Positions 40,051 to 45,702 of a stretch of DNA of 64,000 bases are shown here, piece after piece. Within the stretch, counting starts at the first letter, position 1. Each line of letters opens with the position of its first letter. Made by a program: the position numbers and the translations under genes. Under the pieces are notes generated by a model. The model was not told where the DNA came from and searched no databases. It saw only the letters and a program-made list of their open reading frames with translations. Source of the stretch: Streptomyces sp. HUAS YS2 (GTDB lineage Bacteria; Actinomycetota; Actinomycetes; Streptomycetales; Streptomycetaceae); the NCBI RefSeq assembly GCF_033343995.1, contig NZ_CP137573.1, forward strand, positions 6,605,001 to 6,669,000. The letters run 5' to 3'.

Positions 40051-40147
40051 GCGCAATGTTTCCCCGTCTGTGCCGCGAGCGCGCAATGATCATCTGCCGG
40101 TGCGCAACAACCCTGCATTACAACCGCAACGGCTCAACCCTTAGGCT
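40051..40147 (+). promoter_or_regulatory. Permease/AsnC promoter with phased CGCAA boxes
   Basis: The 314-bp gap 39964-40277 holds this region. GCGCAA occurs at 40051, 40081 and 40102, with a fourth box (CCGCAACGG) at 40124. A weak -35 TTACAA (40118-40123), an 18-base spacer and a good -10 TAGGCT (40142-40147) follow. The three upstream boxes lie 67, 37 and 16 bases before the -35. The same layout recurs at 42990-43088. Confidence 0.65.
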
Positions 40148-40200
40148 CGTGCCCCGTACCAGGAGTGGCGTCGACCGCCCGCTCGGCGGTTCCCCTCCCT

Positions 40201-40226
40201 CGTGGGCATGCTTCCGCATGCCCACG
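40201..40226 (+). other. Perfect stem-loop in the permease 5' leader
   Basis: An 11-bp perfect stem cgtgggcatgc with its complement and a TTCC loop, about 50 nt upstream of the GTG start. It is a candidate transcript-stability or attenuation structure. Confidence 0.6.
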
Positions 40227-40277
40227 CGCCGCCGCGGTCGTCGCGCCCTCGACAGGCAGCGATAAGGAGCCTCCGCA

Positions 40278-41750
40278 GTGCTGGACCACGGCGCAGCCCC
40301 ACCGGTCGACGAGACCACCTCCCGCAAGACCTCCGGGCTCTCCGCCCTGACCCGGCGCAAGCCGGTAGAACGCCTGGTCGCCGAGGGTGGCCAGGGTGAG
40401 GGCGGCTCGCTCCGCCGCTCGCTCTCGATGTGGCAGCTGACCATGATCAGCATCGGTGCCACGCTCGGCACCGGCATCTTCGTCGTGCTCGGCGACGCCG
40501 TCCCGAAGGCCGGCCCCGCGGTCACCCTGGCGTTCGTCATCGCCGGCCTCACGGCGCTCTTCTCCGCCCTCTCGTACGCCGAGCTGGCCGGCGCCATACC
40601 GGTGGCCGGCTCCTCCTACTCGTACGCGTACGCAACGATGGGCGAACTCGTCGCCTGGGTGTGCGGCTGGTGTCTGGTCCTGGAGTACGGCGTCTCCGTC
40701 GCCGCGGTCGCGGTCGGCTGGGGCGAGTACCTCAACGAGCTGCTCGACGGCACCATCGGCGTCACCATCCCCGCCATGCTCTCCTCGGCCCCCGGCGAGG
40801 GCGGCGTGATCAACCTGCCCGGTCTGATCGTCGTGCTGCTCGCCATGGTCTTCCTGCTGGGCGGCGCCCGTGAGTCCGCCGTCGTCAACACCATCATGGT
40901 GTTCGTGAAGATCGCGGCCCTGGTGCTGTTCTGCGCCATCGGCTTCATGGGCTTCAAGTCCGGCAACTACAAGGACTTCATGCCGCTCGGCATGGCAGGC
41001 GTCAGCGCCGCCGGCGCCAGCCTGTTCTTCTCGTACATCGGCTTCGACGCCGCCTCCACGGCCGGTGAGGAGGCGAAGGACCCGAAGCGCGACCTGCCGC
41101 GCGCGATCATGCTCTCGCTGCTCATCGTCACCGTCCTCTACGTGCTGGTCGCCGCCGTCGCCGTCGGCGCGTGGAACTGGAAGGACTTCGAGGGCTCCGA
41201 GGCCACCCTCGCGGCGATCATGAACGACGTCACCGGCCAGACCTTCTGGGGCACCCTGCTCGCCCTCGGCGCCGTCATCTCCATCGCCAGCGTCGTCCTG
41301 ACCGTGCTCTACGGCCAGACCCGCGTGCTGTTCGCGATGTCCCGCGACGGTCTGGTGCCGAAGGTCTTCGCCAAGGTCAACGGCAAGACCGGCACGCCGC
41401 GCGTGAACACCGTCATCGTCTCGCTGTTCTGCGGCGCGCTCGCCTCCGTGATCCCGCTGGGCAAGCTCGTCGACGCCACCAGCATCGGCACGCTGTTCGC
41501 CTTCGGCCTGGTCAACATCGCCGTCATCGTGCTGCGCTACACCCGCCCCGACATGCCGCGCACCTTCAAGGTGCCGCTCGGCTGGCTCTTCCCGGTGCTC
41601 GGCTTCCTGTTCTGCGCGTACAACATGTTCAGCCTGGACGCCGTCACCTGGGTGGTCTTCGGTTGCTGGATGGCCGCCGGGCTCGTGTTCTACTTCCTGT
41701 ACGGCATGCGCCGCTCCCGCCTGGCCACCGAAGCATCAGCAGAGAAGTGA
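40278..41750 (+). CDS. APC-family amino-acid permease (cationic amino-acid type)
   Basis: A 490-residue membrane transporter with about 12 predicted helices, beginning after a polar N-tail of about 50 residues. The first helix has the APC signature SIGATLGTGIFVVLGD. The SYAELAGAIPVAGSSYSYAYA and FFSYIGFDAASTAGEEAKDPKRDLPRAI segments are typical of the CAT-like subgroup that carries basic amino acids. The GTG at 40278 has an AAGGAG site. An AsnC regulator follows 10 bases after the stop, and a predicted amino-acid monooxygenase pathway lies downstream, which together point to lysine or arginine uptake. Confidence 0.88.
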   Translation: MLDHGAAPPVDETTSRKTSGLSALTRRKPVERLVAEGGQGEGGSLRRSLSMWQLTMISIGATLGTGIFVVLGDAVPKAGPAVTLAFVIAGLTALFSALSYAELAGAIPVAGSSYSYAYATMGELVAWVCGWCLVLEYGVSVAAVAVGWGEYLNELLDGTIGVTIPAMLSSAPGEGGVINLPGLIVVLLAMVFLLGGARESAVVNTIMVFVKIAALVLFCAIGFMGFKSGNYKDFMPLGMAGVSAAGASLFFSYIGFDAASTAGEEAKDPKRDLPRAIMLSLLIVTVLYVLVAAVAVGAWNWKDFEGSEATLAAIMNDVTGQTFWGTLLALGAVISIASVVLTVLYGQTRVLFAMSRDGLVPKVFAKVNGKTGTPRVNTVIVSLFCGALASVIPLGKLVDATSIGTLFAFGLVNIAVIVLRYTRPDMPRTFKVPLGWLFPVLGFLFCAYNMFSLDAVTWVVFGCWMAAGLVFYFLYGMRRSRLATEASAEK

Positions 41751-41760
41751 TCCACCCGTA

Positions 41761-42216
41761 GTGCGACTCAACGACCTCGACGAACGCATCGTCCACGCCC
41801 TCGCGGAGGACGCCCGTCGCTCGTACGCCGACATCGGCTCGCTCGTCGGCCTGTCCGCCCCCGCCGTGAAGCGGCGGGTGGACCGGCTGCGGGCCGAGGG
41901 CGCCATCACCGGCTTCACCGTACGGGTGGACCCGGCGGCGCTCGGCTGGGAGACCGAGGGGTTCGTCGAGATCTACTGTCGCCACAACACCTCGCCGGAC
42001 GACATCCGGCGAGGTCTGGAGCGGTACCCCGAGGTGGTGTCCGCGTCGACCGTCACCGGCGACGCGGACGCCGTCGTCCAGGTCTTCGCCTCCGACATGC
42101 GGCACTTCGAGCGGGTCCTGGAACGGATCGCGGGCGAGCCCTTCGTGGAGCGCACCAAGTCCGTCCTGGTGCTCTCGCCGCTGCTGCGACGCTTCTCCTC
42201 GGGCTCGCCCGCGTAG
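41761..42216 (+). CDS. Lrp/AsnC-family transcriptional regulator
   Basis: A 151-residue feast/famine regulator. The N-terminal winged HTH (about 4-55) includes LDERIVHALAEDARRSYADIG and VGLSAPAVKRRVDRL. The C-terminal RAM domain should bind an amino acid and drive octamer assembly. It is co-transcribed with the permease (10-base gap). Lrp-type octamers wrap DNA with boxes spaced by helical turns, which fits the phased CGCAA boxes found upstream of both the permease and the amidase/monooxygenase unit. The probable ligand is the pathway's amino acid. Confidence 0.92.
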   Translation: MRLNDLDERIVHALAEDARRSYADIGSLVGLSAPAVKRRVDRLRAEGAITGFTVRVDPAALGWETEGFVEIYCRHNTSPDDIRRGLERYPEVVSASTVTGDADAVVQVFASDMRHFERVLERIAGEPFVERTKSVLVLSPLLRRFSSGSPA

Positions 42217-42239
42217 CCCCGCGGGCCGCGGCGGCCGGT

Positions 42240-42267
42240 GCGGTGCGGGCCGTGGTTCCCGCACCGC
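42240..42267. terminator. Hairpin terminator after the AsnC regulator
   Basis: A 10-bp stem gcggtgcggg/cccgcaccgc between convergent genes. Confidence 0.65.
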
Positions 42268-42303
42268 GCGCCGCCCGCCCACCCCCGTGGGGCGGCTCGC
42301 GGG

Positions 42304-42855
42304 CTACTCGGTGGGGTACTCGAACTCCCACGGCAGCACCCTGAGGTCGCCGGTGCCCTCCTTCGTCCGCTCGAAGGGGGCGGCGCTGGTGCACTTCGGC
42401 ACCTCGTCCTTCAGCGGGTTGTTGGACGCCATCCAGCTGTAGCCCAGACGGTCCCGCCCCTTGCCCGTATCGTGCACGGAGATGCCGACGCGCTTGCCGA
42501 CGGCCGGGGCGAGCAGCCCCTCCCCGCGGGTGATCACGCCCGTCACCACGGCCACCTTGCCGCCCGTGACCAGACAGTCGACCTTCACGTCGGCCGCCGC
42601 CGCGAACTCGCCCTTGTAGTGGCTGAAGCTGAAGGTGCCCGTCGCCTCCGAGGGCGGCACGTCCTTCGCCAGGTGCGCGTCGAAGCTCATGGTGATGTCG
42701 TCCCCGGCCGGCCGGTAGAGCTTCGCCGAGCCGGTCAGCGCCGCCGCCTCCCGGTTGCCGCTCGCGCCGTCGCCCGAGGCGACGGCGGAGCCCGCCGCCC
42801 CCGCGGTCATCAGCAACGCGGCGGCAACGGCGGCGATCTTCGTACGGCGGTTCAT
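42304..42855 (-). CDS. Secreted protein of unknown function
   Basis: A 183-residue protein with a Sec signal peptide (MNRRTKIAAVAAALLMTAGAAG, cleavage near AVA/S at 26-27). The mature domain is mostly beta-strand, with two Cys, and resembles the small secreted Repetin-like or hypothetical proteins common in Streptomyces: DDITMSFDAHLAKD, GTFSFSHYKGEF, VDCLVTGGKVAVVTGVI. I do not assign a function. The ATG at 42855 has an AAAGGA site. It lies on the opposite strand between the two halves of the amino-acid module and shares its upstream region with the amidase promoter. Confidence 0.75.
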   Translation of the reverse strand: MNRRTKIAAVAAALLMTAGAAGSAVASGDGASGNREAAALTGSAKLYRPAGDDITMSFDAHLAKDVPPSEATGTFSFSHYKGEFAAAADVKVDCLVTGGKVAVVTGVITRGEGLLAPAVGKRVGISVHDTGKGRDRLGYSWMASNNPLKDEVPKCTSAAPFERTKEGTGDLRVLPWEFEYPTE

Positions 42856-42989
42856 GAGGTGGTCCTTTCCGCTGGTCAACCGGACGACCACCACTCTTCC
42901 GCCCGGTCCGCCGCCGGGCGTCGGGCCGCAGGACGGTTCCCGTCTCCGCCGCGCGGCGGGGGAGACGTACGACCTGCGGAGGAAACCGC

Positions 42990-43088
42990 GCGCAACGAAT
43001 CGCCGCGGACCCGAGAAACCGCGCAACGGTTCGACGGTCGGTCCGCAACGGTCTCGCCTTGTCCGGGCGGGAGTCCGAACCGTACGGT
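42990..43088 (+). promoter_or_regulatory. Amidase/monooxygenase promoter with phased CGCAA boxes
   Basis: GCGCAACG at 42990 and 43021 and CCGCAACG at 43043 precede -35 TTGTCC (43059-43064), an 18-base spacer and -10 TACGGT (43083-43088). Boxes lie 69, 38 and 16 bases before the -35, nearly the same as at the permease promoter (67, 37, 16). The predicted leader is about 40 nt. Confidence 0.68.
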
Positions 43089-43135: not shown

Positions 43136-43936
43136 ATGCCGCCGCTGCGCACCGCCCTGCTCCAGAGCTCCGGCGTTCCCGGCGACGTCCCCGCGAACCT
43201 CGCCGCCCTCGACGACGCGGCCTCCCGCGCCGCCGCCGCGGGCGCCGGGCTGCTGATCGCCCCGGAGCTGTTCCTCACCGGCTACGCCATCGGCGAGGAC
43301 CTCGCCCGGCTGGCCGAGGCCGCCGACGGCCCCGGCTCCGAAGCCGTCGCCGCCGTCGCCGTGCGGCACGGCCTGGCGATCGTGTACGGGTACCCGGAGC
43401 GCGCGGGGGAGGCCCTGTACAACGCGGCGCAGCTGATCGGGCCCGACGGCGCCCGGCTCGCGCACTACCGCAAGACGCACCTCTTCGGCGACTTCGAGCA
43501 GAAGTGGTTCACCGCCGGCGACGAGCCGGTCGTGCAGGCGGAGCTGAACGGCCTCACCCTCGGCCTGATGATCTGCTACGACGTCGAGTTCCCGGAGAAC
43601 GTCCGGGCCCACGCGCTCGCCGGGACCGACCTCCTGGCCGTGCCGACGGCGCAGATGCACCCCTTCGAGTTCGTCGCCGAGTCCGTGATCCCGGTGCGCG
43701 CCTTCGAGAACCAGATGTACGTGGCGTACGTGAACCGGACCGGGCCCGAGGGCCCGTACGACTTCGTCGGCCTGTCCGCGCTGGCCGGGCCCGACGGCAC
43801 CGCCCGCGCCCGGGCCGGCCGCGGCACGGAACTGGTCGTCGGCGACGTCGACCCGGAGCTGCTGGCCGCCTCCCGCGCCGCCAACCCGTATCTGCGGGAC
43901 CGGCGCCCCGGCTTCTACTCCGCCCTGACCGAGTAG
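43136..43936 (+). CDS. Nitrilase-superfamily amidase, DavA-like
   Basis: A 266-residue carbon-nitrogen hydrolase. The catalytic triad is visible: Glu in LLIAPELFLTGYAIG, Lys in YRKTHLFGDFE and Cys in GLMICYDVEFPENVR. Size and context match 5-aminopentanamidase (DavA), which hydrolyses the amide made from lysine by the 2-monooxygenase; a 4-guanidinobutanamidase acting after arginine 2-monooxygenase is the alternative. The ATG at 43136 has a GAGG site. The monooxygenase gene starts 71 bases downstream and is probably in the same transcript. Confidence 0.85.
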   Translation: MPPLRTALLQSSGVPGDVPANLAALDDAASRAAAAGAGLLIAPELFLTGYAIGEDLARLAEAADGPGSEAVAAVAVRHGLAIVYGYPERAGEALYNAAQLIGPDGARLAHYRKTHLFGDFEQKWFTAGDEPVVQAELNGLTLGLMICYDVEFPENVRAHALAGTDLLAVPTAQMHPFEFVAESVIPVRAFENQMYVAYVNRTGPEGPYDFVGLSALAGPDGTARARAGRGTELVVGDVDPELLAASRAANPYLRDRRPGFYSALTE

Positions 43937-44007: not shown

Positions 44008-45702
44008 ATGACGTCCACGGTGCCCACCGCTGTCCCGCACACCGACGCATCGCCGCCGATCACCATGTTCGGTCCGGACTTCCCGTACGCGTACGACGAC
44101 TTCCTCGCCCACCCGGCCGGCCTCGGCCAGATACCCGCGACCGAGCACGGCACCGAGGTGGCCGTCATCGGCGGCGGGCTCTCCGGCATCATCGCCGCGT
44201 ACGAGCTGATGAAGATGGGCCTCAAGCCCGTCGTGTACGAGGCGGACCAGATCGGCGGCCGGCTGCGCACCGTCGGCTTCGAGGGCCCGGAGACCGAGGG
44301 GCTGACCGCGGAGATGGGCGCGATGCGCTTCCCGCCGTCCTCCACCGCCCTGCAGCACTACATCGACCTGGTCGGCCTGAAGACCGCGCCGTTCCCGAAC
44401 CCGCTGGCCGAGGCCACCCCGTCGACGGTCGTCGACCTCAAGGGCGAGTCCCACTACGCCGAGACCATCGACGACCTGCCGCAGGTCTACCGCGACGTCG
44501 CCGAGGCCTGGAACAAGTGCCTCGACGAGGGCGCCGACTTCTCCGACATGAACCGCGCCATGCGAGAGCGCGACGTCCCGCGGATCCGTGAGATCTGGGC
44601 GAAGCTCGTCGAGAAGCTCGACAACCAGACCTTCTACGGCTTCCTGTGCGACTCCGAGGCCTTCAAGTCCTTCCGCCACCGGGAGATCTTCGGCCAGGTC
44701 GGCTTCGGCACCGGCGGCTGGGACACCGACTTCCCGAACTCCATCCTGGAGATCCTGCGCGTCGTCTACACCGAGGCCGACGACCACCACCGCGGCATCG
44801 TCGGCGGCTCGCAGCAGCTGCCGCTCCGCCTGTGGGAGCGCGAGCCGGAGAAGATCGTCCACTGGGCGCAGGGCACCTCGCTGCAGTCGCTGCACGAGGG
44901 CGACCCGCGTCCGGCCGTGACCCGGCTGACCCGCGCCGCCGGCAACCGGATCACCGTCACCGACGCCTCCGGCGACATCCGCACCTACCAGGCGGCTATC
45001 TTCACCGCCCAGTCCTGGATGCTGCTGTCGAAGATCGCCTGCGACGACACGCTCTTCCCGATCGACCACTGGACGGCGATCGAGCGCACCCACTACATGG
45101 AGTCCTCGAAGCTGTTCGTGCCCGTCGACCGGCCGTTCTGGCTGGACAAGGACGAGGAGACCGGCCGGGACGTCATGTCGATGACGCTGACCGACCGGAT
45201 GACCCGCGGCACCTACCTCCTGGACGACGGCCCGGACAAGCCGGCCGTCATCTGCCTCTCGTACACCTGGTGCGACGACAGCCTGAAGTGGCTGCCGCTG
45301 TCCGCCCAGGAGCGGATGGAGGTCATGCTCAAGTCGCTCGGCGAGATCTACCCGAAGGTAGACATCCGGAAGCACATCATCGGCAACCCGGTGACCGTGT
45401 CCTGGGAGAACGAGCCCTACTTCATGGGCGCGTTCAAGGCCAACCTGCCGGGCCACTACCGCTACCAGCGCCGCCTGTTCACGCACTTCATGCAGGACCG
45501 GCTGCCCGAGGACAAGCGGGGCATCTTCCTCGCGGGCGACGACATCTCGTGGACGGCCGGCTGGGCCGAGGGCGCGGTGCAGACGGCGCTGAACGCGGTG
45601 TGGGGCGTGATGCACCACCTCGGCGGCGCGACCGACGCCACCAACCCGGGTCCGGGCGACGTGTACGACGAGATCGCCCCCGTGGAACTTCCGGAGGACT
45701 GA
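44008..45702 (+). CDS. Flavin-dependent basic amino-acid 2-monooxygenase, DavB-like
   Basis: A 564-residue amine-oxidase-fold FAD enzyme. The FAD dinucleotide motif is VAVIGGGLSGIIAAYEL (51-67), followed by EADQIGGRLRTVGFEG. The C-terminal FAD block is GIFLAGDDISWTAGWAEG. Throughout its length it resembles, from memory, Pseudomonas L-lysine 2-monooxygenase (DavB), including VGFGTGGWDTDFPNS and MTLTDRMTRGTYLLDDG. Such enzymes decarboxylate and oxidise the amino acid to an amide. At the position of the Pseudomonas Cys254 it has Ala257. An AAGGAG site sets the ATG at 44008. The substrate may be lysine or arginine. Confidence 0.85.
   Translation: MTSTVPTAVPHTDASPPITMFGPDFPYAYDDFLAHPAGLGQIPATEHGTEVAVIGGGLSGIIAAYELMKMGLKPVVYEADQIGGRLRTVGFEGPETEGLTAEMGAMRFPPSSTALQHYIDLVGLKTAPFPNPLAEATPSTVVDLKGESHYAETIDDLPQVYRDVAEAWNKCLDEGADFSDMNRAMRERDVPRIREIWAKLVEKLDNQTFYGFLCDSEAFKSFRHREIFGQVGFGTGGWDTDFPNSILEILRVVYTEADDHHRGIVGGSQQLPLRLWEREPEKIVHWAQGTSLQSLHEGDPRPAVTRLTRAAGNRITVTDASGDIRTYQAAIFTAQSWMLLSKIACDDTLFPIDHWTAIERTHYMESSKLFVPVDRPFWLDKDEETGRDVMSMTLTDRMTRGTYLLDDGPDKPAVICLSYTWCDDSLKWLPLSAQERMEVMLKSLGEIYPKVDIRKHIIGNPVTVSWENEPYFMGAFKANLPGHYRYQRRLFTHFMQDRLPEDKRGIFLAGDDISWTAGWAEGAVQTALNAVWGVMHHLGGATDATNPGPGDVYDEIAPVELPED

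Follow-up and report, generated by a model that had tools for sequence, protein, structure and literature searches.

Local feast/famine regulators of the Lrp/AsnC family combine an AsnC-type helix-turn-helix with an AsnC ligand-binding domain and act at phased, similar sites, and the spacings reported at their targets include 30-31 bp (PMC8707732). In Mycobacterium tuberculosis, arginine induces the Rv2319c-rocDE-Rv2323c cluster together with the adjacent regulator gene Rv2324, the latter six-fold, and growth on arginine requires Rv2323c (PMC4569260). Rv2324 was also struck repeatedly in high-persister mutants (PMC4866775), and no defined binding site for it was found in the open-access literature. 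A third described system is the Pseudomonas L-amino-acid oxidase/monooxygenase (L-AAO/MOG, structure 3we0), which acts on lysine, ornithine and arginine. Its Asp238 contacts the positive charge of the substrate and its Cys254 sets the ratio of oxidase to monooxygenase activity (PMC5832979).

The locus described here lies in a Streptomyces stretch of 64,000 nucleotides, referred to as the window. It contains the following features:

40051..40063, + strand, permease promoter box 1 (GCGCAATG...), 30 bp before box 2, a distance kept in relatives
40081..40093, + strand, permease promoter box 2 (GCGCAATGATC), conserved in relatives
40102..40114, + strand, permease promoter box 3 (GCGCAAC), 21 bp after box 2
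40118..40123, + strand, permease promoter -35-like TTACAA, a weak match to consensus, TTACGA in most near relatives
40142..40147, + strand, permease promoter -10 TAGGCT, 39 bp after box 3
40278..41750, + strand, amino-acid permease (AA_permease_2, cationic-amino-acid-transporter-like; Pfam and NCBIfam)
41761..42216, + strand, AsnC/Lrp-family regulator with GTG start at 41761, HTH_AsnC-type and AsnC_trans_reg domains
42990..43002, + strand, amidase promoter box 1 (GCGCAACGAATCG), conserved in relatives
43021..43033, + strand, amidase promoter box 2 (GCGCAACGGTTCG), 31 bp after box 1
43043..43055, + strand, amidase promoter box 3 (CCGCAACGG), 22 bp after box 2
43059..43064, + strand, amidase promoter -35-like TTGTCC, with CTTGTC conserved
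43083..43088, + strand, amidase promoter -10 TACGGT, 39 bp after box 3, TACCGT in most relatives
43136..43936, + strand, CN_hydrolase (nitrilase-superfamily) amidase, Pfam E 2e-50
44008..45702, + strand, FAD amino-acid oxidase/2-monooxygenase, co-directional and 3' of the amidase, 3we0 E 1e-239

The original prediction, made from the letters of the window, held that the two promoters share one architecture of phased boxes. All boxes are where it had placed them, its 6-mer starts lying one base 5' of the exact CGCAA starts (40052, 40082 and 40103 before the permease; 42991, 43022 and 43044 before the amidase), and the 18-bp spacers and the box-to--35 distances (67/37/16 and 69/38/16) are also correct. 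The shared architecture amounts to spacings of 30/21 bp at the permease and 31/22 bp at the amidase, near whole helical turns as claimed. The regulator gene, described as lying between the two units, instead belongs to one of them: the permease gene ends at 41750 and is followed in the same unit by asnC, which starts at 41761 as its second gene. The prediction had overlooked a further CGCAA, the fourth, at 40125 within the spacer between the permease -35 and -10. This box was considered as a functional site and is probably incidental, because only three of 71 permease promoters, the window's included, have a box there. Between asnC and the amidase, a divergent gene (42304-42855) encodes a 183-amino-acid, probably secreted protein without a Pfam match and is found in many, not all, Streptomyces. 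The boxes are unlikely to serve this gene, because they are kept at four loci (L019-L022) in which it is undetected.

CGCAA is common in GC-rich DNA, with 51 + 14 copies in the window, and the boxes could in principle be chance or low-complexity repeats without function. A second-order Markov model of the window gave 0.003 triple boxes per 64 kb in simulated windows versus the two observed. When the whole 7.88-Mb genome was searched for CGCAA-N24..27-CGCAA-N15..18-CGCAA, the pattern matched twice, exactly at the permease and amidase promoters, and the reversed control pattern gave zero matches in the same genome. A 103-column profile recovered the same two promoters (E 3.8e-18 and 4.3e-12, scores that are partly by construction since both sequences are among the 38 promoters from which the profile was made), the next match having E 0.1. 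No wider regulon was found in the genome by pattern or profile, and on the best reading the regulon here would comprise the permease and amidase promoters.

The original prediction named absence of the boxes from related species as grounds for its rejection, and the boxes proved to be conserved among 80 Streptomyces loci gathered by similarity to the AsnC protein. The spacings of 30/21 bp and 31/22 bp are kept in most of these loci, that of the amidase in nearly all, although the letters that separate the boxes vary. Some permease promoters have one or two boxes that deviate from exact CGCAA. This conservation already refutes the chance reading, to which we attach practically no weight. The gene order permease-asnC-(zero to several genes)-amidase-FAD oxidase is widely conserved, as is the adjacency of amidase (CN_hydrolase) and oxidase. 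Profile matches were found in 40 of 41 Streptomyces genomes, usually as two sites close together, and one third match (G009:C1:1476510) adjoins a paralogous asnC. The regulon is present in most sampled Streptomyces. In many permease promoters (among L009-L088), the window's not among them, an additional, fourth box precedes box 1 by 21 bp, so that the array is a symmetric 21-30-21 one.

The regulator belongs to the Lrp/AsnC family, with an N-terminal AsnC-type helix-turn-helix (PF13404, E 8e-16), a C-terminal ligand-binding domain (PF01037, E 7e-16) and several similar promoter sites in near helical phase, and like known local members it adjoins its predicted targets. The recognition helix GLSAPAVKRRVDRL is common to nearly all box-bearing homologs, and LSAPAVKRRVDRL, with small changes allowed, occurs in nearly all homologs listed, including every one with CGCAA triple boxes. 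What sets this system apart is the use of direct CGCAAC-type repeats on a nearly fixed 31/22/39 ruler that, unlike in known Lrp/AsnC systems, is retained in several families of actinobacteria and before target genes that are unrelated to each other. Three boxes at 31 and then 22 bp are in themselves not proof of a wrapped octamer.

Whether the boxes belong to this AsnC bears on a further explanation, in which another regulator, such as a different AsnC/Lrp paralog, binds them and asnC is merely a neighbor. Adjacency is not binding, and a genome search returned 38 AsnC-like candidates at first look. The comparison draws on 198 genomes sampled over the class, 64 of which have an asnC homolog at E below 1e-40, and on a search of the same genomes for the exact triple box. 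Among the 182 actinobacterial genomes outside Streptomyces, the box occurs in 16 of 48 with the homolog versus five of 134 without it (Fisher p 5e-7, for genomes that share ancestry and are phylogenetically non-independent). In each of the 16 genomes the site is 13-528 bp away from asnC; the five sites in genomes lacking the gene look like chance. The remaining 32 of the 48 asnC-bearing genomes have no exact triple box, and the loci inspected among them mostly have degenerate ones. The target outside the genus is a hydrolase of the DDAH/arginine-deiminase superfamily instead of the permease or amidase, and a third target type, a PLP-dependent decarboxylase, occurs in one other genus of Streptomycetaceae, where an asnC homolog (64% identical) accompanies a 31/21 triple box before the decarboxylase gene (L156, 1225-2947). 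The boxes stay with the same asnC lineage across families while the gene behind them changes, and a ddah-linked Streptomyces paralog retains the geometry with altered letters. Both points speak against a foreign regulator, which we regard as very improbable. The motif follows the regulator and not the target gene, which argues that the neighboring AsnC, a candidate in the original prediction, very probably binds the boxes. In a midpoint-rooted tree of AsnC proteins, the window type forms one supported group inside mostly ddah-linked homologs. The DDAH gene of the window's own genome was considered as a third target and rejected, as it lies about 1 Mb away, without boxes and with no asnC homolog nearby.

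A scan of all 1156 pairs of spacings from 12 to 45 bp returned (30,21) as the best for permease promoters, (31,22) for amidase promoters and (31,21) for ddah promoters, the last resting on loci picked by AsnC alone and not by the triple box. The pair (31,21) was also best for the ddah promoters of three Streptomyces loci that have a paralogous asnC alongside. Between promoters, spacing differs by 1 bp. Counted from the C of box 3, a TAnnnT -10 begins at exactly 39 bp in 46 of the 51 distinct promoters of the permease class, in 58 of the 62 distinct ones of the amidase class and in 9 of 14 for ddah; most other ddah loci have it at 37-39 bp. Taking the -10 element at position -12, box 3 covers approximately -51 to -40, and boxes 2 and 1 lie at about -73 and -104. 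The promoter geometry is unusually rigid, and the regulon appears to be new and of a known kind.

The sign of regulation can be read from the same promoters. The -35 elements are weak (TTACnn, TTGTCC) and barely recognizable at most ddah promoters, and because the boxes lie upstream of them the arrangement suggests that expected of an activator. The opposite reading, that AsnC binds the boxes and represses both units by wrapping promoter DNA until a ligand frees it, is in keeping with the many Lrp/AsnC proteins that repress or switch sign; the boxes come within 16 bp of the -35, and asnC is carried in the permease unit, which makes autorepression plausible. However, no conserved box overlaps the -35 or -10, the one at 40125 being unconserved, and -10 elements conserved beside weak or nearly absent -35s are a feature of activator-dependent promoters. 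The M. tuberculosis homolog, moreover, rises with its presumed targets on arginine (PMC4569260). We consider repression unlikely, and favor as the probable explanation a local Lrp/AsnC activator that binds the boxes and switches on uptake and catabolism of basic amino acids at two promoters.

The enzymes point to the nature of the substrate. The closest solved structure to the oxidase is L-AAO/MOG (3we0, E 1e-239), and the charge-recognizing Asp238 (chain position 258) aligns to the Asp in GGWDTDFPN of the window oxidase, the numbering offset having been verified with Trp235, Cys254 and Gln258. Membership in the flavin amine-oxidase family near L-AAO/MOG together with this Asp marks the protein as a predicted amino-acid 2-monooxygenase of the L-lysine/arginine type. 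The closest solved structures to the amidase are amidases, and an amidase gene before the oxidase gene is expected if the oxidase makes an amide. The locus thus resembles the Pseudomonas enzyme and amide-forming 2-monooxygenase pathways in the kept charge-recognizing Asp and the adjacent amidase. It differs in that Cys254 of 3we0 is Ala in the window oxidase, whose substrate and activity are predictions. Both units probably serve the uptake and breakdown of basic amino acids.

As in the M. tuberculosis Rv2324 system, a regulator of the AsnC family stands beside a catabolic unit, in that case arginine-catabolic and arginine-induced. Boxes are seen at locus L187, which we infer to be mycobacterial and which carries asnC, ddah, a rocD-like aminotransferase gene and a permease gene (product 49% identical to the window's) in M. 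tuberculosis order. Unlike the Rv2323c/Rv2324 cluster, the window locus is without DDAH or rocD, no DDAH-like gene adjoins its asnC, and its targets are the permease, amidase and FAD oxidase. The window and Rv2324-type AsnC proteins are homologs in clusters of different type, and the analysis links the Streptomyces regulon to the DDAH/roc arginine cluster that other actinobacteria carry. Because the M. tuberculosis cluster is arginine-induced and L187 shares its order and boxes, arginine is favored as the likely inducer. The chief alternative is lysine, which could also take the place of arginine as the substrate.

Under the activator model, the AsnC protein of 41761-42216 would contact three direct copies of approximately CGCAACGAATCG on one face of the DNA, spaced 31 + 22 bp at the amidase and 30 + 21 bp at the permease, probably bound as dimers in a larger assembly. 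Sitting directly upstream of a poor -35, it would recruit RNA polymerase and place it at the TAnnnT -10, which keeps a fixed distance of 39 bp downstream from the last box. The signal would be a plentiful basic amino acid, most likely arginine, then lysine or ornithine, upon which AsnC would turn on uptake, through the permease and along with its own gene, and a two-step breakdown in which the FAD monooxygenase carries out oxidative decarboxylation and the amidase then hydrolyzes the amide. The boxes, their geometry and conservation, the association with asnC and the two-promoter regulon come from sequence comparison, and direct binding, activation, effector and oligomeric state are what we infer. 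The regulon is apparently undescribed in the open-access literature, where no papers were found under presumed S. coelicolor locus names, and the analysis gives it a motif with a fixed promoter geometry, together with a putative regulator and a probable inducer. The rigid ruler also offers a clean system in which to study activation by Lrp/AsnC proteins from positions that are fixed on the helix.

A wider and more tentative idea is that an AsnC subfamily uses a hard-wired ruler (box-~31-box-~22-box-39-TAnnnT) which has moved among unrelated catabolic genes, and that the recognition helix SAPAV versus SATAV or SSTAV predicts CGCAA versus CGCAG; we find this possible, though the odds lean against it. 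In the ddah-linked paralogs of Streptomyces the helix is SATAV or SSTAV and the boxes read CGCAG in most cases; with three sequences, the link between helix and box letters is only a lead.

The 5' leader of the permease gene (40148-40277) is conserved in pieces (GTAC..GGAGTGGCG, GCTCGG and GGCAGCGAT-AAGGAG). RNAalifold found little covariation and Rfam gave no match for it; single leaders fold into long stems, with z -2.7 in the window, but three of the six leaders examined gave values of about 0 or above, and a structured leader is possible. In two other genera of Streptomycetaceae, a triple CGCAA array with 31/20-bp spacing and similar letters (CGCAATG...ATGCGCAA) is shared between L155 (2292-2343) and L161 (2744-2795), with no asnC in the fetched stretch, and the array of L155 precedes ferredoxin/reductase and P450 genes.
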